Notes under the pieces: model-generated
What the model saw: only the letters and a program-made list of their open reading frames with translations
Told to the model about the DNA's origin: nothing
The model's database searches: none
Shown here: positions 6,191-27,043 of the stretch, one piece after another
Numbering within the stretch: position 1 is the stretch's first letter
Layout of the letters: each line of letters starts with the position of its first letter
Origin: a virus
Virus record (IMG/VR): IMGVR_UViG_3300027770_000195
Span: 1 to 29,890 of that record
Reading direction: 5' to 3' (one strand)
Length of the DNA stretch: 29,890 bases
Made by a program: the position numbers and the translations under genes

Positions 6191-6984
6191 AGGCTGGATG
6201 CTGCTGACATACCGGCACCAATGAGTGCGGTGGAGTTGGCTGCAGAAGCAGTACGGGCAGCAAGCTGTTGCTGCTGGTTACCACCGATCAAGTTGGCGGC
6301 GTACTGCGACTCGGGGTTGAAAAGCTGGCCCGGATTGAATCCCTGGGCTTGGCCTAGGAAACTTTGAGATCCAGCAAAGGCCTGTGATGGGCGCCCAAGC
6401 ACCTGTTGGAACACGTCGCCGTACACGCCTTGTGATGCTCCGAGGGCTCCCATGGCCTGCTGGGAGCGTTGTTGCTGCATTCCGGCTCCAGATAGCTGGG
6501 AGCGCACAGCCTCCTGTAGGCCGGCTGTGGGGCTTCCTGCGAGGCCTCGGGCAGCAAAGGAGCCTCGGGTCTGTTGTTCGACCTGGCGCTGTTGTTCGGG
6601 CGTTAGCCGGGAGCCAGCGTTGAGCCCGGATTGAGCCTGGGCGGTAAGACTGTCAGCCAGTGCTGCCTGCTGTGGCGAGGCAGCCTTGATTGCAGCACGC
6701 GCCTGGGGGCCGAGGGTCGAGATGTCGGCAATGTCGCCAGCTCGGGAACGGGAGCGTGCGGCGGCCTCGACCTCGCCCATGGCCGGCGCGATCTGGTCCC
6801 GGTAAAGCTGTAGGAGTTCGGGAGTGGCAGACTTGAGTAGGCCGAGCTGCAACGCCTGATACTGCGGGGCATACTTGGCCTCTGCCGCATATTTCTGCGG
6901 AGCTAGGTCAAGCTGTGCCTGCAGCGTGTCACGGGTTTCTTGGCCGTAGTTACGCGGCGTTGGTGCTTCAACTGAGGTTCCCAT
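6187..6984 (-). CDS. Predicted internal virion protein, A/Q-rich
   Basis: A 265-residue helical protein. The N-terminal part (APQKYAAEAKYAPQYQALQL, residues 28-47) matches a pattern I know from putative internal or tail proteins of short-tailed environmental phages (YAAEAQYxPxYxxL). The middle is rich in Gln and Ala (LTPEQQRQVEQQTRGSFAAR), and the C-terminus carries NPESQYAANLIGGNQQQQLAA. There is no enzyme motif. The start follows an A-rich leader (ACAAAAAAT) instead of an SD and lies inside the end of the preceding 138-residue gene (17-base overlap). Confidence 0.7.
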   Translation of the reverse strand: MGTSVEAPTPRNYGQETRDTLQAQLDLAPQKYAAEAKYAPQYQALQLGLLKSATPELLQLYRDQIAPAMGEVEAAARSRSRAGDIADISTLGPQARAAIKAASPQQAALADSLTAQAQSGLNAGSRLTPEQQRQVEQQTRGSFAARGLAGSPTAGLQEAVRSQLSGAGMQQQRSQQAMGALGASQGVYGDVFQQVLGRPSQAFAGSQSFLGQAQGFNPGQLFNPESQYAANLIGGNQQQQLAARTASAANSTALIGAGMSAASSL

Positions 6985-19654: not shown

Positions 19655-21361
19655 TTAGTATCCACCGCCGCCGCGGGAATTGAAGCCCCCATTGCCCACG
19701 TAAGCAAGGCCCGAGACCAAAAGCATACCGATGCAGTCGATAGGATCCTTGGATGCCCCTTTCTGACCATCCCTACCTGTGTGCTCGCTCAGAGCATAGA
19801 TCAGGTTGCTGCAGTTCTTGACCACATACAGCGCCGGCTCGTTTAGCGGGGTAAGCTCCTGCGTAGCATCGTAGGACAGCAGGCTGTTAATGGCGCTCGT
19901 CCTTTGGTCTACAGGCACACCAGGAGCCGGGATGAAGGCCATGCCATCGTCCAGTGGGTTGTCGGACTCAGCCAGCAGGTCGATGAGCGTGGTGCCCCCC
20001 TGCTCCGATAGTGCCGGGCTACCGCCGGCCTTGGGGTCGATCAATCGCATCACGGGCTCACCATAGCCCAGCTCCGCCTCAATGGTCCGAAACATGGTCC
20101 GATACTCCGATATTGACCTACCCGCATCCAGTGTCTGAGCCGGGCCTGCCTTGCCGTCGTGTTTCTCCGATGGGAACGTCCACTCGCCATAGTTGGCGTA
20201 ATCCGGGAACTCACGCACCACGATCCGCCTGCCATTCTCGTACACCAGCATCCACATACAGAACCAGTTCCGAGCGCCGGCAGGGTCGCATACCATGTAC
20301 AGCGTCCCCCCAGGAGGCACGGCCTCGGGCTCGATGCAGTGGATGTCCACTCGGAACCTAGCGAAGGCCTTCCCAATGTTATCAGAAGCCCACCCATAGG
20401 CCCGGGTAAGGATCTGCCCCATAGGTGCCGTAACCAACTTCGCCTTCATCTCGTCGAACGGGTTGTAGGGGTTGTCCTCCGAGAAGAAGAACACCGTACG
20501 CCTATTGGTCTGGGCCTGCACCATCGTCCTGGCTGCCTTGCCCACAGGCCATGTAGGCAGCGCCTGTTTGCCCTTCAGTAGCTCCGCATCGTCGAACCTA
20601 GTGATAGCAGAGCCGGCGGTGTATTCCTTGTATACCGAGGCAACGCCCTCCAGTGGCGTCTGGGTCACCAGTAGCTTGCCGCGGCGTGTAATGAGCCGGT
20701 AGCGCAGCGTCTCAACCCATGACTGTGGCACCAGCTCGTCGCACCAGATCATGTCAGCCTCCCGCCCCTCGATAGTGTTCTCCGACTGCGTGTAGTTTAG
20801 GAAGTCGCACCGGCTGCCATTAGGGAGGATGAATGAACCATCGGTGAAACCGTTCTTCCGAGAGTAGTTGAGATAGTGGATCCTGCCCTTCTTGGTGCCC
20901 CTTAGCGCCACAGGCAGGTAGTTATAGATCGCAGGCTGCTGAACAGTCACCGAGGTGGCATGGCTCGTATGGCAGCACAGTACCGCGGCGTTCTCCTTCT
21001 CCAGCAGCGTCTGCACCACTCGCCGGGCTGCCCATAGCGTCTTACCTGCCCGGTTGCCGCCCGATACCAACAGCTCCTGGGTGAGTGCGTACTCGGTGTT
21101 GCCGATCTCCCAGTGGTCGGGAATGTAGCCGTAGGTGTATGGGTCGGCTTTTTCTAAGGTTACGAGCTGGGTCCGCTTGAGTCGCAACTCGACAGCACGA
21201 GGGTGCGCGGCGTCTACCCGGGGTATAACAGGGTGCAACGGCTGTTCGTTCCACCAGGCTGTGTTGCACGCCTCGGTGCAGAAGCGCTTCTGCTTAGGGC
21301 CGGTGTGGTGCTTGAGGATTACGAATGGCTTGGAGCATAGGAGGCAGAGAGGGAGGGACAT
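19655..21361 (-). CDS. terL: Terminase large subunit with N-terminal zinc finger
   Basis: A 568-residue packaging ATPase-nuclease. Walker A GGNRAGKT is at 101-108, Walker B MIWCDE at 204-209, and the coupling motif LLVTQTPLEG at 230-239. Nuclease-domain acidic sites are seen at VCDPAGARNW (D359), LIDPKAGG, and the late SKDPIDCIGML. Unusually, the first 35 residues are a small zinc-binding module (C6, C9, C28, C32; CLLC and CTEAC) that most large terminases lack. It uses ATP to drive DNA through the portal and cuts the concatemer. A TAA lies in frame two codons upstream, fixing the start. The gene follows a 153-base spacer after the small-terminase-like gene. Confidence 0.92.
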   Translation of the reverse strand: MSLPLCLLCSKPFVILKHHTGPKQKRFCTEACNTAWWNEQPLHPVIPRVDAAHPRAVELRLKRTQLVTLEKADPYTYGYIPDHWEIGNTEYALTQELLVSGGNRAGKTLWAARRVVQTLLEKENAAVLCCHTSHATSVTVQQPAIYNYLPVALRGTKKGRIHYLNYSRKNGFTDGSFILPNGSRCDFLNYTQSENTIEGREADMIWCDELVPQSWVETLRYRLITRRGKLLVTQTPLEGVASVYKEYTAGSAITRFDDAELLKGKQALPTWPVGKAARTMVQAQTNRRTVFFFSEDNPYNPFDEMKAKLVTAPMGQILTRAYGWASDNIGKAFARFRVDIHCIEPEAVPPGGTLYMVCDPAGARNWFCMWMLVYENGRRIVVREFPDYANYGEWTFPSEKHDGKAGPAQTLDAGRSISEYRTMFRTIEAELGYGEPVMRLIDPKAGGSPALSEQGGTTLIDLLAESDNPLDDGMAFIPAPGVPVDQRTSAINSLLSYDATQELTPLNEPALYVVKNCSNLIYALSEHTGRDGQKGASKDPIDCIGMLLVSGLAYVGNGGFNSRGGGGY

Positions 21362-22940: not shown

Positions 22941-23281
22941 GGCTGTTTCAAATCGTGTTTGATTCTGTCGGATGCGAGTATTGCTTCATGCCCTTTGGCT
23001 AATATGTATGTAATTGATCCTCTTGATACACCAATTGCTTTTGCAGTGTCGTCCAGTGTAAGGCCTAGCTGCCTGAGTTCGTATGCACGCTGACAGAACT
23101 CCGGGGTGTACTGCTCCGGGTCGACGTGTATCTCTTCCTCGATGCCTGGGTCAAGCGAGCCGTCGTTGTGATACTTCTGACTGAGCGGGTAGGACATGAG
23201 GCCATGGTCGATGGCCCACTTGATCAGCCTGGGCGCTTCGTTCAAGAGCTTGGTGCGGTTGAGGTCGTATTTTATGGTCAT
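22937..23281 (-). CDS. Small HTH DNA-binding protein
   Basis: A 114-residue protein, ATG at 23281 chosen for its ATGA overlap with the helicase stop. The C-terminal half shows a helix-turn-helix (EFCQRAYELRQLGLTLDDTA, then KAIGVSRGSITYILA, about 62-96), similar to resolvase or sigma-type HTH folds. The N-terminal half (RLIKWAIDHGLMSYP) is unassigned. It is coupled to the DnaB-like helicase upstream and the glycosyltransferase downstream. A regulator or replication/packaging accessory protein is possible. Confidence 0.7.
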   Translation of the reverse strand: MTIKYDLNRTKLLNEAPRLIKWAIDHGLMSYPLSQKYHNDGSLDPGIEEEIHVDPEQYTPEFCQRAYELRQLGLTLDDTAKAIGVSRGSITYILAKGHEAILASDRIKHDLKQP

Positions 23282-24573
23282 TGGAAGGATGGAGATGGGT
23301 CGGTGAAACGGCAGTATTGGCCTTCGTACCACAGAGGGACGATGCCGCATTCACCGTCTCGTTGTTTTGCAATGGCGATGATGGCCTCGCCGTTGGCCTC
23401 ATGGCGCTCCCGGTTGAGCAGGAGCACTAGATCGGCATCACGCTCGATTTGCCCGCTATCCGAAAGGTCATTTAGCCTGGGCACTCGTTTTTCTTTTTCG
23501 TTCTCACGGTTCAACTGCGCCAAGGCTACGACGGCTGTTCTAGTATCTTGAGCCACTGCCTTCAGCTTGCCTGACACTTCCGCAATCTCATAGGTCTTCT
23601 TCTCGGCTGACTTGGAACCATGGATCTTTTGGAGGTAATCTATGAGAACTAATTTTACTCCCCACTTGCGTACTGCCCTGCGTATTACCGCGGTGATTGT
23701 AGCAATGCTGGATATGCCTGAGCCAGACACATAGTAAATAGGACTGCTGGCTACTTTAGCTGTAGCTGAACCCATAGCCTTCATGCCTCCTTCATCCATC
23801 TCACCGGTCTTGATGGCCTGCATCGGTATAGATCCAACGGTCGAGACCATACGGCGCACGATAGACTCATCGGACATCTCTAGGCTAATGAAAAGGGTTG
23901 GCACCCGGTGCTCGATGGCTGCTGCCTTGGCAATGGCTATGGCAATGGCCGTCTTACCGATGCTTGGCCTAGCTCCGATGATGGCTAACTCACCGAGCTG
24001 GAAACCATCGGTCAGCTTGTCCAGACGATGGAAGCCCGAGGTAATGCCGCTCAACTGGCCTTTGCGGTTGAACCGTTCCTGAGTGCTGTCGATGAACCGA
24101 CTTACAACGGACTTGGAGTTTTGTACTTCCTCTTTGGCTGCCTCGACGGTGAGGCCTGCCTCGGCATTAGAGACGATTTGATCTACCGAGAGGGTGGTGA
24201 CAGCGGATTCACGTATCAAACGATCTCCGGTGAATCGCAGATGGCGACGGTGGTGAGCCTCCAGGACAGCCTTGGCGAACTCGGGATAATTGGCCGGGCT
24301 GGCGCAGATCTCGTCGCAGCGGTTCAATTCCTCAAAAGGCGGGGTGATCTGAGGAATAGAGCGCTTCCACTCTTTGACCACGGTCTGGAGGCTGATTGCC
24401 TCGTGCCTGCCTATGAGGGCCTTGGTGATCTCGTACACCTGGCGGAGCTTATCCTGCTGGATTGCATCCGGTGGTATCCGGGCGAATACCTCGTAGCAAA
24501 CATCAGGACCGCCGGTGAGACAGGCACCGATGAGGCCGTACTCGTCGTCCTGGGCGTAGTAGGGGTCGCTCAT
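23278..24573 (-). CDS. dnaB: Replicative DNA helicase, DnaB family
   Basis: A 431-residue hexameric helicase. The N-terminal domain is typical (EYGLIGACLTGGPDVCYEVF, about 11-30). The RecA-like motor starts at about 178 (SGFHRLDKLTDGFQLGELAI), with Walker A GARPSIGKT at 200-208, FISLEMS (228-234), Walker B LVLIDYLQ at 308-315, and the late motifs VALAQLNRENEKEKR, LNDLSDSGQIERDADLVLLL. It unwinds DNA at the fork and is probably loaded by the product of the gene just upstream. It overlaps that gene by ATGA and is slightly shorter than bacterial DnaB (about 470). Confidence 0.92.
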   Translation of the reverse strand: MSDPYYAQDDEYGLIGACLTGGPDVCYEVFARIPPDAIQQDKLRQVYEITKALIGRHEAISLQTVVKEWKRSIPQITPPFEELNRCDEICASPANYPEFAKAVLEAHHRRHLRFTGDRLIRESAVTTLSVDQIVSNAEAGLTVEAAKEEVQNSKSVVSRFIDSTQERFNRKGQLSGITSGFHRLDKLTDGFQLGELAIIGARPSIGKTAIAIAIAKAAAIEHRVPTLFISLEMSDESIVRRMVSTVGSIPMQAIKTGEMDEGGMKAMGSATAKVASSPIYYVSGSGISSIATITAVIRRAVRKWGVKLVLIDYLQKIHGSKSAEKKTYEIAEVSGKLKAVAQDTRTAVVALAQLNRENEKEKRVPRLNDLSDSGQIERDADLVLLLNRERHEANGEAIIAIAKQRDGECGIVPLWYEGQYCRFTDPSPSFQ

Positions 24574-25340
24574 TGGTAGTCCGATATGTTGAGGCTGGAA
24601 GCGCCTAGCTTGTTGTTGCCTGAGATCAGATCGCTTTGAGTCTTGTCGATCTCACCGTTCCAATGGTTCAACAGGGTATCTAGTTCTTTCCTGAGATACG
24701 GGTCGTTTGATTTGTAGCGTTGCTCCAGGCGAACGAGGTCTTCCTCAGGTGTGTTCAGGTCGAACACCTCTTTGAGCTTTTTGATTTCACCGGTAGACCA
24801 TTTGGTCGAAGGCCTACGGCGAAGCATCGCACCAACACGTAGGCGAAAGGCTTCGAGGTCAGGACTCAAGGCTTTCTGCGAAACTCCTTCCTTTCCATTC
24901 CCTTCCCTTCCCTTCCCTTCCCCTTGACCCGCGTGGTCGTCGCGTGGGGCACGCGTGGGGCACGCGTCAATTTCATCGGTGTTTATTGGCGTTTCTTCAA
25001 TGTTTCCTTCTGGATCCGGCAGAATAGACTGCGATTCCCGGTTGTTGATCACCTGGTGCTTTAGAAAGCTCGGAATCCATCCAAAACACTCGTCATCTAC
25101 GCGATACTTGAAAACAAAACCACGCGTGGTCAACGCGTCGAGCACGCGTGAAAAGTCGACTCCATCGTAGGGCAGAACCTGCACACCGATGCGCCTGGGC
25201 TCCCACTTGAATCTGCCTTCTCGGTCAGCAATACACCAGAGGCCGGCAAAGGCCACTCGGATCGGTAGCTTGGTTTCCAGCTCGGCCTCAAACAGTCCCT
25301 CGTGGTGGAAGAACTCGGGCTTGATTGATCGGATTCTCAT
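24570..25340 (-). CDS. Phage replication initiator / helicase-loader-like winged-helix protein
   Basis: A 256-residue protein. The N-terminal domain (RIRSIKPEFFHHEGLFEAEL, then FAGLWCIADREGRFKWEPRR, VLPYDGVDFSRVLDALTTRG, FLKHQVINNRESQS) is the winged-helix domain of a common phage replication protein. A Gly/Glu/Lys linker at about 135-152 follows, encoded by GGGAA repeats. The C-terminal domain (about 160-245, WSTGEIKKLKEVFDLNTPEE) may contact helicase or primase. The gene lies directly before the DnaB-like helicase and overlaps it by ATGA. It has a strong SD (AAAAAGGAG, seven bases before the ATG). Inside the gene lies an array of CGCGT repeats with 11-bp spacing, so it may encode its own origin as lambda O does. 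Confidence 0.8.
   Translation of the reverse strand: MRIRSIKPEFFHHEGLFEAELETKLPIRVAFAGLWCIADREGRFKWEPRRIGVQVLPYDGVDFSRVLDALTTRGFVFKYRVDDECFGWIPSFLKHQVINNRESQSILPDPEGNIEETPINTDEIDACPTRAPRDDHAGQGEGKGREGNGKEGVSQKALSPDLEAFRLRVGAMLRRRPSTKWSTGEIKKLKEVFDLNTPEEDLVRLEQRYKSNDPYLRKELDTLLNHWNGEIDKTQSDLISGNNKLGASSLNISDYQ
24886..24929. repeat. Pyrimidine/purine tract of CTTCC units
   Basis: A strand-asymmetric tract of CCCTT/CCTTC units (purine-rich GGGAA on the coding minus strand). It encodes the Gly/Glu/Lys linker of the initiator and adjoins the first CGCGT repeat at 24930. Purine tracts beside iterons are known from phage origins, and the tract may also slip. Confidence 0.8.
24930..24973. repeat. Iteron cluster 1: four CGCGT units at 11-bp spacing
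   Basis: CGCGT begins at 24930, 24941, 24952 and 24963, exactly 11 bases apart. On the plus strand the units read CGCGTGGTCGT, CGCGTGGGGCA, CGCGTGGGGCA and CGCGTCAATTT. The period does not follow the codon frame, so it is not explained by a simple amino-acid repeat. It is a candidate binding array for the initiator encoded by the same gene. Confidence 0.7.
25123..25155. repeat. Iteron cluster 2: three CGCGT units at 11-bp spacing
   Basis: CGCGT begins at 25123, 25134 and 25145, again exactly 11 bases apart (CGCGTGGTCAA, CGCGTCGAGCA, CGCGTGAAAAG). The first unit shares nine bases with the first unit of cluster 1. An A-rich stretch (TTGAAAACAAAAC, about 25108-25120) adjoins it and could be the melting region of an origin. 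Confidence 0.65.
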
Positions 25341-25825
25341 TGGTTGTTCTCCTTTTTAATACAGGCCGACTTCACTTCATTCCTCAATTCAACCAACCAC
25401 TCTTTTGTCATCACTCCCTGTTCCGCTGCGTCTTTCAAGAGGTGCATGATCTCAAACGGAGGCCATCCAATATCATGCCCCGCTCGCTCAATAAAAAACA
25501 GACATCCCTCATCTGGAACTATGTCCTGCTGCATCATTTGAATTTGCCTTTCAATCTCAAAGCACGCGGAAACCTCCCACAAGTAAAAGTAAGCAGGCCT
25601 GGGACAGGAATCATCGTTTCCTTCGACGTGACACTTCCTGCAAAGAGTCACCATTGATTGGTCTGGGTATTCCCAGGGCATCCTTCCCGAGATGTAGTAA
25701 AAATGGTGAACGGTCAGTGTATTGGTTGCGGAATCGCATTTCACGCACTGAAACTTGTCTCGGGACATTATTTTTAGGCGCATCTTCTGCCACCGCGGAT
25801 CTTGTAATTTTTCGGAGTAGGTCAT
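25337..25825 (-). CDS. HNH endonuclease
   Basis: A 162-residue protein. The zinc-ribbon HNH core is clear: CVKC (C27, C30), TVHHFYYISGRMPWEYPDQS with H40-H41, and LCRKCH (C62, C65, H66). The N-terminus YSEKLQDPRWQKMRLKIMSR is typical of phage HNH proteins. The C-terminal half has no known motif. It may nick DNA as a homing-type endonuclease, or assist packaging or recombination; its location between modification and replication genes does not decide. It overlaps the initiator gene by ATGA. The start has no SD but lies at the base of a foldable leader. Confidence 0.85.
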   Translation of the reverse strand: MTYSEKLQDPRWQKMRLKIMSRDKFQCVKCDSATNTLTVHHFYYISGRMPWEYPDQSMVTLCRKCHVEGNDDSCPRPAYFYLWEVSACFEIERQIQMMQQDIVPDEGCLFFIERAGHDIGWPPFEIMHLLKDAAEQGVMTKEWLVELRNEVKSACIKKENNQ

Positions 25826-25978: not shown

Positions 25979-27043
25979 TTAGCTGACAGGATGGTCGATG
26001 TCCAGCTCACTCATCAGGCTTCTGAAAGCTCGTTCTGCTGTTGCTGGGACAACACCGTTACCGAGGAGTCGGAGTTCATCCGTTCTATTGTCACAGGTGA
26101 TGCACAACTGGGCATAGTCCATCCCACTGGCAGACCCATCAGGGTTTCCACCCAACGGGGGTTGAGTTTGCCGTTGTTGCCTGTCTGTCTCAGCAAGTGA
26201 TTCCCCACATGGCCATATCCCTCCCTGCCCGCTCGACAGTTCATTTGTTCTGATCGTCCAGCCGTCATGCTGTTGCTTGGTGTCGCCCACGACTCTGGGC
26301 GGCTCCCATCCGTACTGCTGCTCGCCGGGACGGCTGGGCCATGCTGCTTGATAACCACCGTGGTGAGACTCTCTTGTTGTCCTTTCATACCGCGGCTCCT
26401 GTTCTGGAATCCCTGTCGAACCTCGCTGGCTTGGACTGTGGGCCAGTAGCACTGACGTGCCGAGGGGGGGGGGTGTGCGCTTGAGTTGAGACTCGCCTTG
26501 CGAATTCTTGGCCTCGTTCGCTGTCATGGTGGGCCATGATGAAGACCCGCTTGCGTTGGTGAGGCGCTCCGCATTCAGACGCGCTGAATATGCCCCACGT
26601 CGTTCGATAACCCATTCCTGCCAGGTCTTCGATGACGTCGGACAGCCCCAGGCTGATATGTCCTTCGACGTTTTCAAAGAAACAGATCCGGGGTCTGAGA
26701 AGTCGAATGCCGTCTGCGATGTAGGGCCAGAGGTGCCTTGGGTCGTCCTTGCCTTTACGCTGCCCTGCTGCACTGAAGGGCTGACATGGGTAGCCCCCAG
26801 TGAGGATGTCCACTCGGTCGCGAAACGCTGCCCAAGGGAAGGTCTTAAGATCCGGCCAGATAGGTGCCGGGTCCATGAGTCCCGCTTCCATTTTCGCAAC
26901 CAGATTGCTAATGGCGAAGGCTTCGATCTCACAAAGAGCGACTGTGCGCAGACTTGGGATTGCTCGTTTGAGTCCAAGCTCAATGCCTCCGTATCCAGCG
27001 CACAGGCCAAGGTGTGTAACTGCCGGGGTAGAATCCATGTCAT
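25979..27043 (-). CDS. Second-frame ORF over the methyltransferase gene, carrying the methyltransferase C-terminus
   Basis: A 354-codon frame open from the ATG at 27043, with SD GAGGAG five bases upstream. Its 5-prime part (to the C tract at 26473-26464) overprints methyltransferase motifs I-VIII and yet reads like a known phage protein type: PSVQQGSVKARTTQGTSGPT, SLKTSKDISAWGCPTSSKTW, ERRGAYSARLNAERLTNASG, SSSWPTMTANEAK. Its 3-prime part reads as the true methyltransferase C-terminus: WPSRPGEQQYGWEPPRVV and RTDELRLLGNGVVPATAERA (motif X). The written frame therefore looks like a join of two different proteins. Removing one C from the C10 tract would connect motifs I-VIII to this C-terminus (352 residues) and connect the second-frame N-terminus to the third-frame segment. 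Confidence 0.6.
   Translation of the reverse strand: MTWILPRQLHTLACALDTEALSLDSNEQSQVCAQSLFVRSKPSPLAIWLRKWKRDSWTRHLSGRILRPSLGQRFATEWTSSLGATHVSPSVQQGSVKARTTQGTSGPTSQTAFDFSDPGSVSLKTSKDISAWGCPTSSKTWQEWVIERRGAYSARLNAERLTNASGSSSWPTMTANEAKNSQGESQLKRTPPPLGTSVLLAHSPSQRGSTGIPEQEPRYERTTRESHHGGYQAAWPSRPGEQQYGWEPPRVVGDTKQQHDGWTIRTNELSSGQGGIWPCGESLAETDRQQRQTQPPLGGNPDGSASGMDYAQLCITCDNRTDELRLLGNGVVPATAERAFRSLMSELDIDHPVS
26014..26461 (-). CDS. Third-frame coding segment: C-terminal half of the second-frame companion protein
   Basis: Just after the C tract this frame is open to the TGA at 26014 and reads YWPTVQASEVRQGFQNRSRG, HGPAVPASSSTDGSRPESWA, then KLNPRWVETLMGLPVGWTMP. The last is a strongly family-specific motif (LNPxWVExLMGxPxGWT) known from the C-terminal parts of methyltransferase-linked phage proteins. 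It has no proper start of its own. With one C fewer in the tract it would continue from the SLKTSK...SSWPT frame, giving a 342-residue protein. Overlap with the methyltransferase C-terminus is complete. Confidence 0.45.
26385..27038 (-). CDS. C5-cytosine DNA methyltransferase, motifs I-VIII (N-terminal part in this frame)
   Basis: The ATG at 27038 opens 217 codons. Motif I LGLCAGYGGIELGL (10-23) binds S-adenosylmethionine. Motif IV GGYPCQPFSAAGQRKG (81-96) holds the catalytic C85. Motif VI is ENVEG (122-126) and motif VIII ECGAPHQRKRVFI (155-167). After the C10 tract the frame gives only a short unrelated tail, and the expected target-recognition/motif X region lies in the frame of the 25979-27043 ORF. 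The gene is therefore frameshifted as written, phase-variable, or carries a homopolymer sequencing error. The SD GAGGAG is ten bases from this ATG and five from the overlapping one. Product would make 5-methylcytosine, probably to evade restriction. Confidence 0.85.
   Translation of the reverse strand: MDSTPAVTHLGLCAGYGGIELGLKRAIPSLRTVALCEIEAFAISNLVAKMEAGLMDPAPIWPDLKTFPWAAFRDRVDILTGGYPCQPFSAAGQRKGKDDPRHLWPYIADGIRLLRPRICFFENVEGHISLGLSDVIEDLAGMGYRTTWGIFSASECGAPHQRKRVFIMAHHDSERGQEFARRVSTQAHTPPPRHVSATGPQSKPARFDRDSRTGAAV
26464..26473. repeat. Ten-base G/C homopolymer inside the methyltransferase gene
   Basis: Ten consecutive G on the plus strand (C on the coding strand), exactly where the methyltransferase and its overlapping partner both change frame. 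Such tracts slip during replication and are also error-prone in sequencing. Confidence 0.95.

Follow-up and report, generated by a model that had tools for sequence, protein, structure and literature searches.

The systems closest to the locus described here are the origins of bacteriophages lambda and SPP1 and those of the iteron plasmids. In lambda, a melting region flanks the iterons (PMC5043065). SPP1 gp38 binds direct repeats located inside its own gene, gene 38, and gp40 of the same phage is a DnaB helicase (PMC6316719). In iteron plasmids the direct repeats are arranged in helical phase and disturbing this phase can inactivate the origin (PMC5043065). In mycobacteriophage Miko, repA together with 171 bp of upstream sequence is sufficient for replication (PMC7157519).

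The window analysed here is the whole 29,890-base stretch of an IMG/VR record from a freshwater tailed phage whose major capsid protein is of the SU10 type. A first-pass annotation had pointed to a candidate replication origin composed of CGCGT repeats with an 11-bp period inside an initiator gene. The predictions of this reading at the sequence level all held and support it: the theta-replication origin of the phage very probably lies inside the initiator gene, in a lambda-like arrangement.

The initiator gene and its neighbourhood

The features of the locus are collected in Table 1. The DnaB gene immediately follows the initiator gene in the same operon, and the two overlap by 4 bases. The match of the initiator to the phrog_16167 profile (E 5.3e-40) covers residues 1-117, which correspond to the N-terminal domain, and the related PHROG families 1408, 17247, 12556 and 2149 also match the N-terminal part. 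These five families are mostly named replication initiation protein and it is through its N-terminal domain that the window protein belongs with them. In relatives, the neighbours of the initiator gene vary and include DnaB, P-like loader or DnaC-like genes. Apart from lambda's own, none of the annotated records examined has an origin or iterons marked in the initiator gene.

Table 1. Features of the initiator locus, in window coordinates
Feature	Position	Strand	Remarks
DnaB-type replicative helicase	23278..24573	-	PF03796 E 9e-71; phrog_19
Initiator gene, 256 aa	24570..25340	-	PHROG phrog_16167 match E 5e-40; AlphaFold2 model
Polypurine tandem tract (GGGAA)n, codes for E/K/G/R-rich linker	24884..24925	-	DNA-level conservation; candidate opening/loading element
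Iteron array B, four copies, 11-bp step, linker codons	24929..24967	-	nt 374-412 of gene
Less stable segment, A-rich on coding strand, flanks array B	24968..25003		96th percentile of duplex instability in the window
Degenerate, offset iteron-like copy	25098..25103	-	In relatives, a perfect ACGCGT is often found 11 bp beyond it
Iteron array A, ACGCGT x3 at 25122, 25133 and 25144, 11-bp step	25122..25149	-	codons 64-73
HNH endonuclease gene	25337..25825	-	Directly upstream of the initiator gene

A C-5 cytosine methyltransferase match is also present at 25979-27043 of the window, in a 217-aa frame (26385-27038). This frame terminates close to a G run (about 26465), and another frame of the same strand, 354 aa long, overlaps it; the methyltransferase gene may be split by a frameshift.

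The arrays in the window

The seven CGCGT copies reported initially were all recovered, at plus-strand positions 24930, 24941, 24952 and 24963 and at 25123, 25134 and 25145, with every step equal to 11 bp. On the coding (minus) strand the word is the palindrome ACGCGT. In array B, the copies at 24929 and 24940 are degenerate and those at 24951 and 24962 are perfect. The two arrays are separated by about 160 bp. ACGCGT occurs five times in the whole window, always inside the initiator gene, and among all 5-mers of the 29.9 kb CGCGT alone reaches four or more equally spaced copies, steps of 7-40 bp being tested.

The earlier claim that an 11-base step cannot arise from codon repetition, 11 being no multiple of 3, was borne out by two null models. 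The gene includes five CGCGT pairs at 11 bp. In 20,000 codon resamplings which kept the protein, the mean number was 0.06 and the maximum 3, and in 20,000 runs of within-gene synonymous permutation the maximum was 4. The observed value was thus reached in 0/20,000 trials with either null.

Conservation in relatives

Conservation of the repeats in relatives had been suggested as a check, and the 11-bp step is indeed kept. Among close relatives we saw none in which the protein was retained and the 11-bp spacing lost; in more distant relatives a recognisable perfect array has disappeared. The viral contigs of 71 relatives contain ACGCGT 468 times inside the initiator gene versus 5 times in the 482 kb outside it, and additional copies are usually in the same 11-bp phase. 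A test of periodicity against a codon-permutation null, carried out with 87 representatives below 75 per cent identity, gave its strongest signal at lag 11 (mean Z of 2.2), with lags 10 and 22 next. The raised lag 10 is probably due mainly to the 5-bp purine repeat together with some 10-bp arrays.

The codons of array A are near-invariant in 37 dereplicated relatives: Ser is TCA, Ala is GCG and Thr is ACG in 100 per cent of them. This excess of synonymous conservation is significant (P=5e-7), and neighbouring conserved residues use many codons. In the linker, the residues vary among relatives while the iteron word stays. Selection therefore acts on the DNA itself, and sites in helical phase with conservation at the DNA level are what is expected of iterons. 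The arrays might have been envisaged as a mere consequence of the protein sequence or of codon bias, since the linker is of low complexity and the helix encoded by array A is conserved. The step, both nulls, the frozen codons and the persistence of the word across variable linker residues rule this out, and we give it practically no credence.

Internal 11-bp arrays are carried by hundreds of relatives from many bacterial phyla. Their positions (nt 191, 202 and 213 and about nt 350-400 of the gene) are the same in prophages of Mesorhizobium and Bradyrhizobium (Rhizobiales), Acidobacteria, Caballeronia, Gilvimarinus and others, Gammaproteobacteria included. Circular phage-like plasmids also carry the gene with its arrays, an observation simply consistent with autonomous replication.

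DNA-only scans and a second motif class

Viral contigs were also scanned by DNA alone for three ACGCGT words at a fixed step. With an 11-bp step this retrieved at least 120 stretches, compared with 15 for a 10-bp and 24 for a 12-bp step. Membership of the family was judged with a profile of the initiator N-terminal domain. Among the matches listed, 131 of the 151 arrays with an 11-bp step fall within a family gene and 20 outside; the corresponding fractions are 12/18 at 10 bp and 0/32 at 12 bp. The 11-bp arrays are in this way restricted to the gene family. Since some 11-bp ACGCGT loci are common to both, the DNA-only and protein searches are not fully independent.

TCGCGA, chosen as a composition control, had to be rejected as such because it proved to be another motif class of the same initiator family: 183 of the 202 TCGCGA arrays at 11 bp, among the matches listed, lie within genes of the family and 19 outside. 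Many members of this class are of the actinophage type, and they often carry two arrays, at about nt 170-215 and 345-430. Isolated phages such as PFR1 and Bernal13 are examples. These arrays recur at like positions in the same family, so the word switches while step and place stay.

In the window and the relatives' loci, ACGCGT is found once outside the gene, against 14 occurrences expected in 222 kb. We considered avoidance of decoy sites as an explanation and rejected it: ACATGT, CAGCTG and CGATCG are similarly depleted. Restriction avoidance suffices to explain the depletion of ACGCGT, and the strong depletion of all four looks like avoidance of restriction sites.

The tandem tract and duplex stability

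The purine tract which had been noticed beside the array B cluster is real and can now be described as a separate, conserved tandem element. In the linker stretch, defined by protein composition, all-purine codons account for 198/199 Gly and 55/61 Arg, compared with 282/734 and 176/927, respectively, elsewhere. A G-quadruplex was considered and rejected, many relatives lacking four GGG runs on inspection; it hence appears to be the purine bias, rather than a quadruplex, that is conserved.

Other lineages carry a tandem array at the same place, made of 7-bp CTGATTCC units or of 8-bp units of the GGAACAG type. Enterobacterial, Pseudomonas and Acinetobacter relatives include 7-bp tandems of the CTGATTCC type which encode DSLIPDSLIP at about nt 390-530, and in several of these relatives weaker 11-bp repeats of other words are located upstream. 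In actinophage-type TCGCGA members, the two arrays are followed by 8-bp GGAACAG-type tandems.

The A-rich stretch described beside array A exists (about 25111-25121), but no evidence for its conservation was found. In both motif classes the average duplex instability rises to a mild maximum at the place of the tandem array, 50-70 nt beyond the point where array B starts; the tract itself is G+A.

Predicted protein architecture

In the AlphaFold2 model of the initiator (mean pLDDT 77.6), residues 1-116 are predicted to fold as a winged-helix N-terminal domain and residues 117-155 to form a disordered linker, and the C-terminal domain (about 160-240) is helical. Array A corresponds to helix 63-72, the predicted third helix of the winged-helix fold, and array B and the purine tract lie among the linker codons. 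This placement refines the initial reading, since array A overlaps codons for the third helix of the DNA-binding domain. The third helix is quite different in relatives with array B only. Residues N99, N100, W46 and R40 were examined as specificity determinants and track ACGCGT strongly. They were not retained: tree-aware pairs number only 3-5, too few for the association between residue and word to be separated from shared ancestry. In several relatives the C-terminal domain is exchanged or missing right after the iterons and purine tract, a pattern which suggests recombination at the candidate origin.

A search of solved structures by sequence with the initiator gave no useful match, and a fold search of the PDB returned weak winged-helix matches only. 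The nearest of these, proteins of the ArsR/MarR fold, would suit arrays acting as operators, at which the operon would be regulated by the initiator itself or by another regulator while replication starts elsewhere. Initiators often autoregulate. The arrays are nevertheless located 190-410 nt inside the gene rather than at a promoter, and the word is absent from the rest of the window. The conserved tandem tract beside array B, which is like lambda's flanking element (PMC5043065), also argues against operators, and we regard them as improbable.

The weak matches also include the centromere-binding proteins AspA, TubR and those of pNOB8, and direct repeats are typical of partition and packaging sites. 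Such a site, bound by the winged-helix protein, is nonetheless very unlikely here: the word travels with a family of DnaB-adjacent replication initiators, and no ParA was noticed beside the gene in the window or in annotated relatives.

Proposed functioning of the origin

By analogy with lambda and the iteron plasmids, copies of the initiator would bind the ACGCGT iterons through their N-terminal winged-helix domain. A step of 11 bp is approximately one helical turn and would therefore place the subunits on one face of the DNA in a phased complex, which may span arrays A and B. Wrapping or bending by this complex could open the flank of array B, composed of the short purine tract and the adjoining weak duplex, and the C-terminal domain would then recruit the DnaB helicase encoded next door. 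GC skew was uninformative: neither in the window nor in the complete phages VvAW1 and ct4oC223 does it turn at this site.

For this process array A may be either indispensable or accessory. Possibly, though we lean away from it, the origin is composed of array B and the purine tract alone, array A acting in copy control, handcuffing or autoregulation; this would modify the origin proposed here and does not exclude it. One group of relatives, accounting for 26 of the 125 array-bearing genes, has array B without array A, and lambda has a single array, in the linker. In two Curvibacter prophages devoid of array A, a second ACGCGT array is found instead in a small gene immediately downstream of the initiator (L126 4894-4937; L135 1252-1290). 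However, array A is as strongly constrained as array B in the group to which the window belongs, and it recurs in the TCGCGA class.

Further ACGCGT arrays or pairs at 11 bp occur outside the initiator gene in these Curvibacter prophages and in ct4oC223 and VvAW1. They tell against the proposed origin in that the word also works elsewhere or further sites exist. In ct4oC223 the additional array (37460-37509) is located just upstream of the terminase gene, leaving a packaging role there possible; in VvAW1 the arrays or pairs are at 6939-6977, 20084-20100 and 25522-25538. The additional arrays of ct4oC223 and VvAW1 are possible second origins, control sites or packaging sites.

With the origin inside the initiator gene as the preferred reading, we tentatively advance a broader proposal, to which we give slightly less than even weight. 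The locus would represent a widespread class of origins whose binding sites are written in the codons for the DNA-binding domain (array A) and for the linker (array B) of the initiator itself. Specificity and origin would then form one inseparable unit, movable by horizontal transfer, with a switchable word (ACGCGT, TCGCGA and others) and a fixed 11-bp geometry. The second tandem array, of the GGGAA, CTGATTCC or GGAACAG type, would be the strand-opening or loading element.

Origins of this family, in Pseudomonadota, Acidobacteriota and actinophages, appear to have been unmapped so far. A simple sequence rule predicts both the origin and the word read by the initiator for a large family of phages and prophages, and word swapping renders the specificity of a phage origin directly testable. 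The locus also offers a natural case in which one stretch of DNA is both a binding site and the code for the domain that presumably binds there. It further suggests a modular replicon that could be built into vectors for hosts in which few tools exist.

Comparison with known systems

As lambda gene O and SPP1 gene 38 both include internal repeats, this kind of origin is already known. We found no earlier description of the 11-bp arrays in the open-access papers searched. Miko RepA, which might have provided functional proof, was rejected: it does not match the family profile and has no 11-bp array.

The likeness to the iteron plasmids P1, F, RK2 and R6K is one of description and consists in direct repeats phased with the helix. 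These plasmids have longer iterons, many of them situated outside the rep gene. The likeness to SPP1 is also one of description; in SPP1 the two origins are separated by about 13 kb and have AT-rich unwinding elements, and the additional arrays in ct4oC223 and VvAW1 may be comparable to its oriR.

A parallel with lambda gene O was drawn initially. In gene O the annotated iterons cover nt 349-433, which is where array B (nt 374-412) is placed here; both are inside the initiator gene after the DNA-binding domain, and a helicase-recruiting gene adjoins. Profile comparison with lambda O gave a probability of 0.4 per cent, and homology of the window protein to it was not detected. The iterons of lambda, four in number and 18 bp long, are some 20-24 bp apart, bind O dimers and have a 40-bp A+T-rich flank. 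In contrast, the origin proposed here has 6-bp words with an exact 11-bp step, the codons for the DNA-binding domain carry a second array, and a purine tandem tract, not AT-rich like lambda's flank, lies beside array B.
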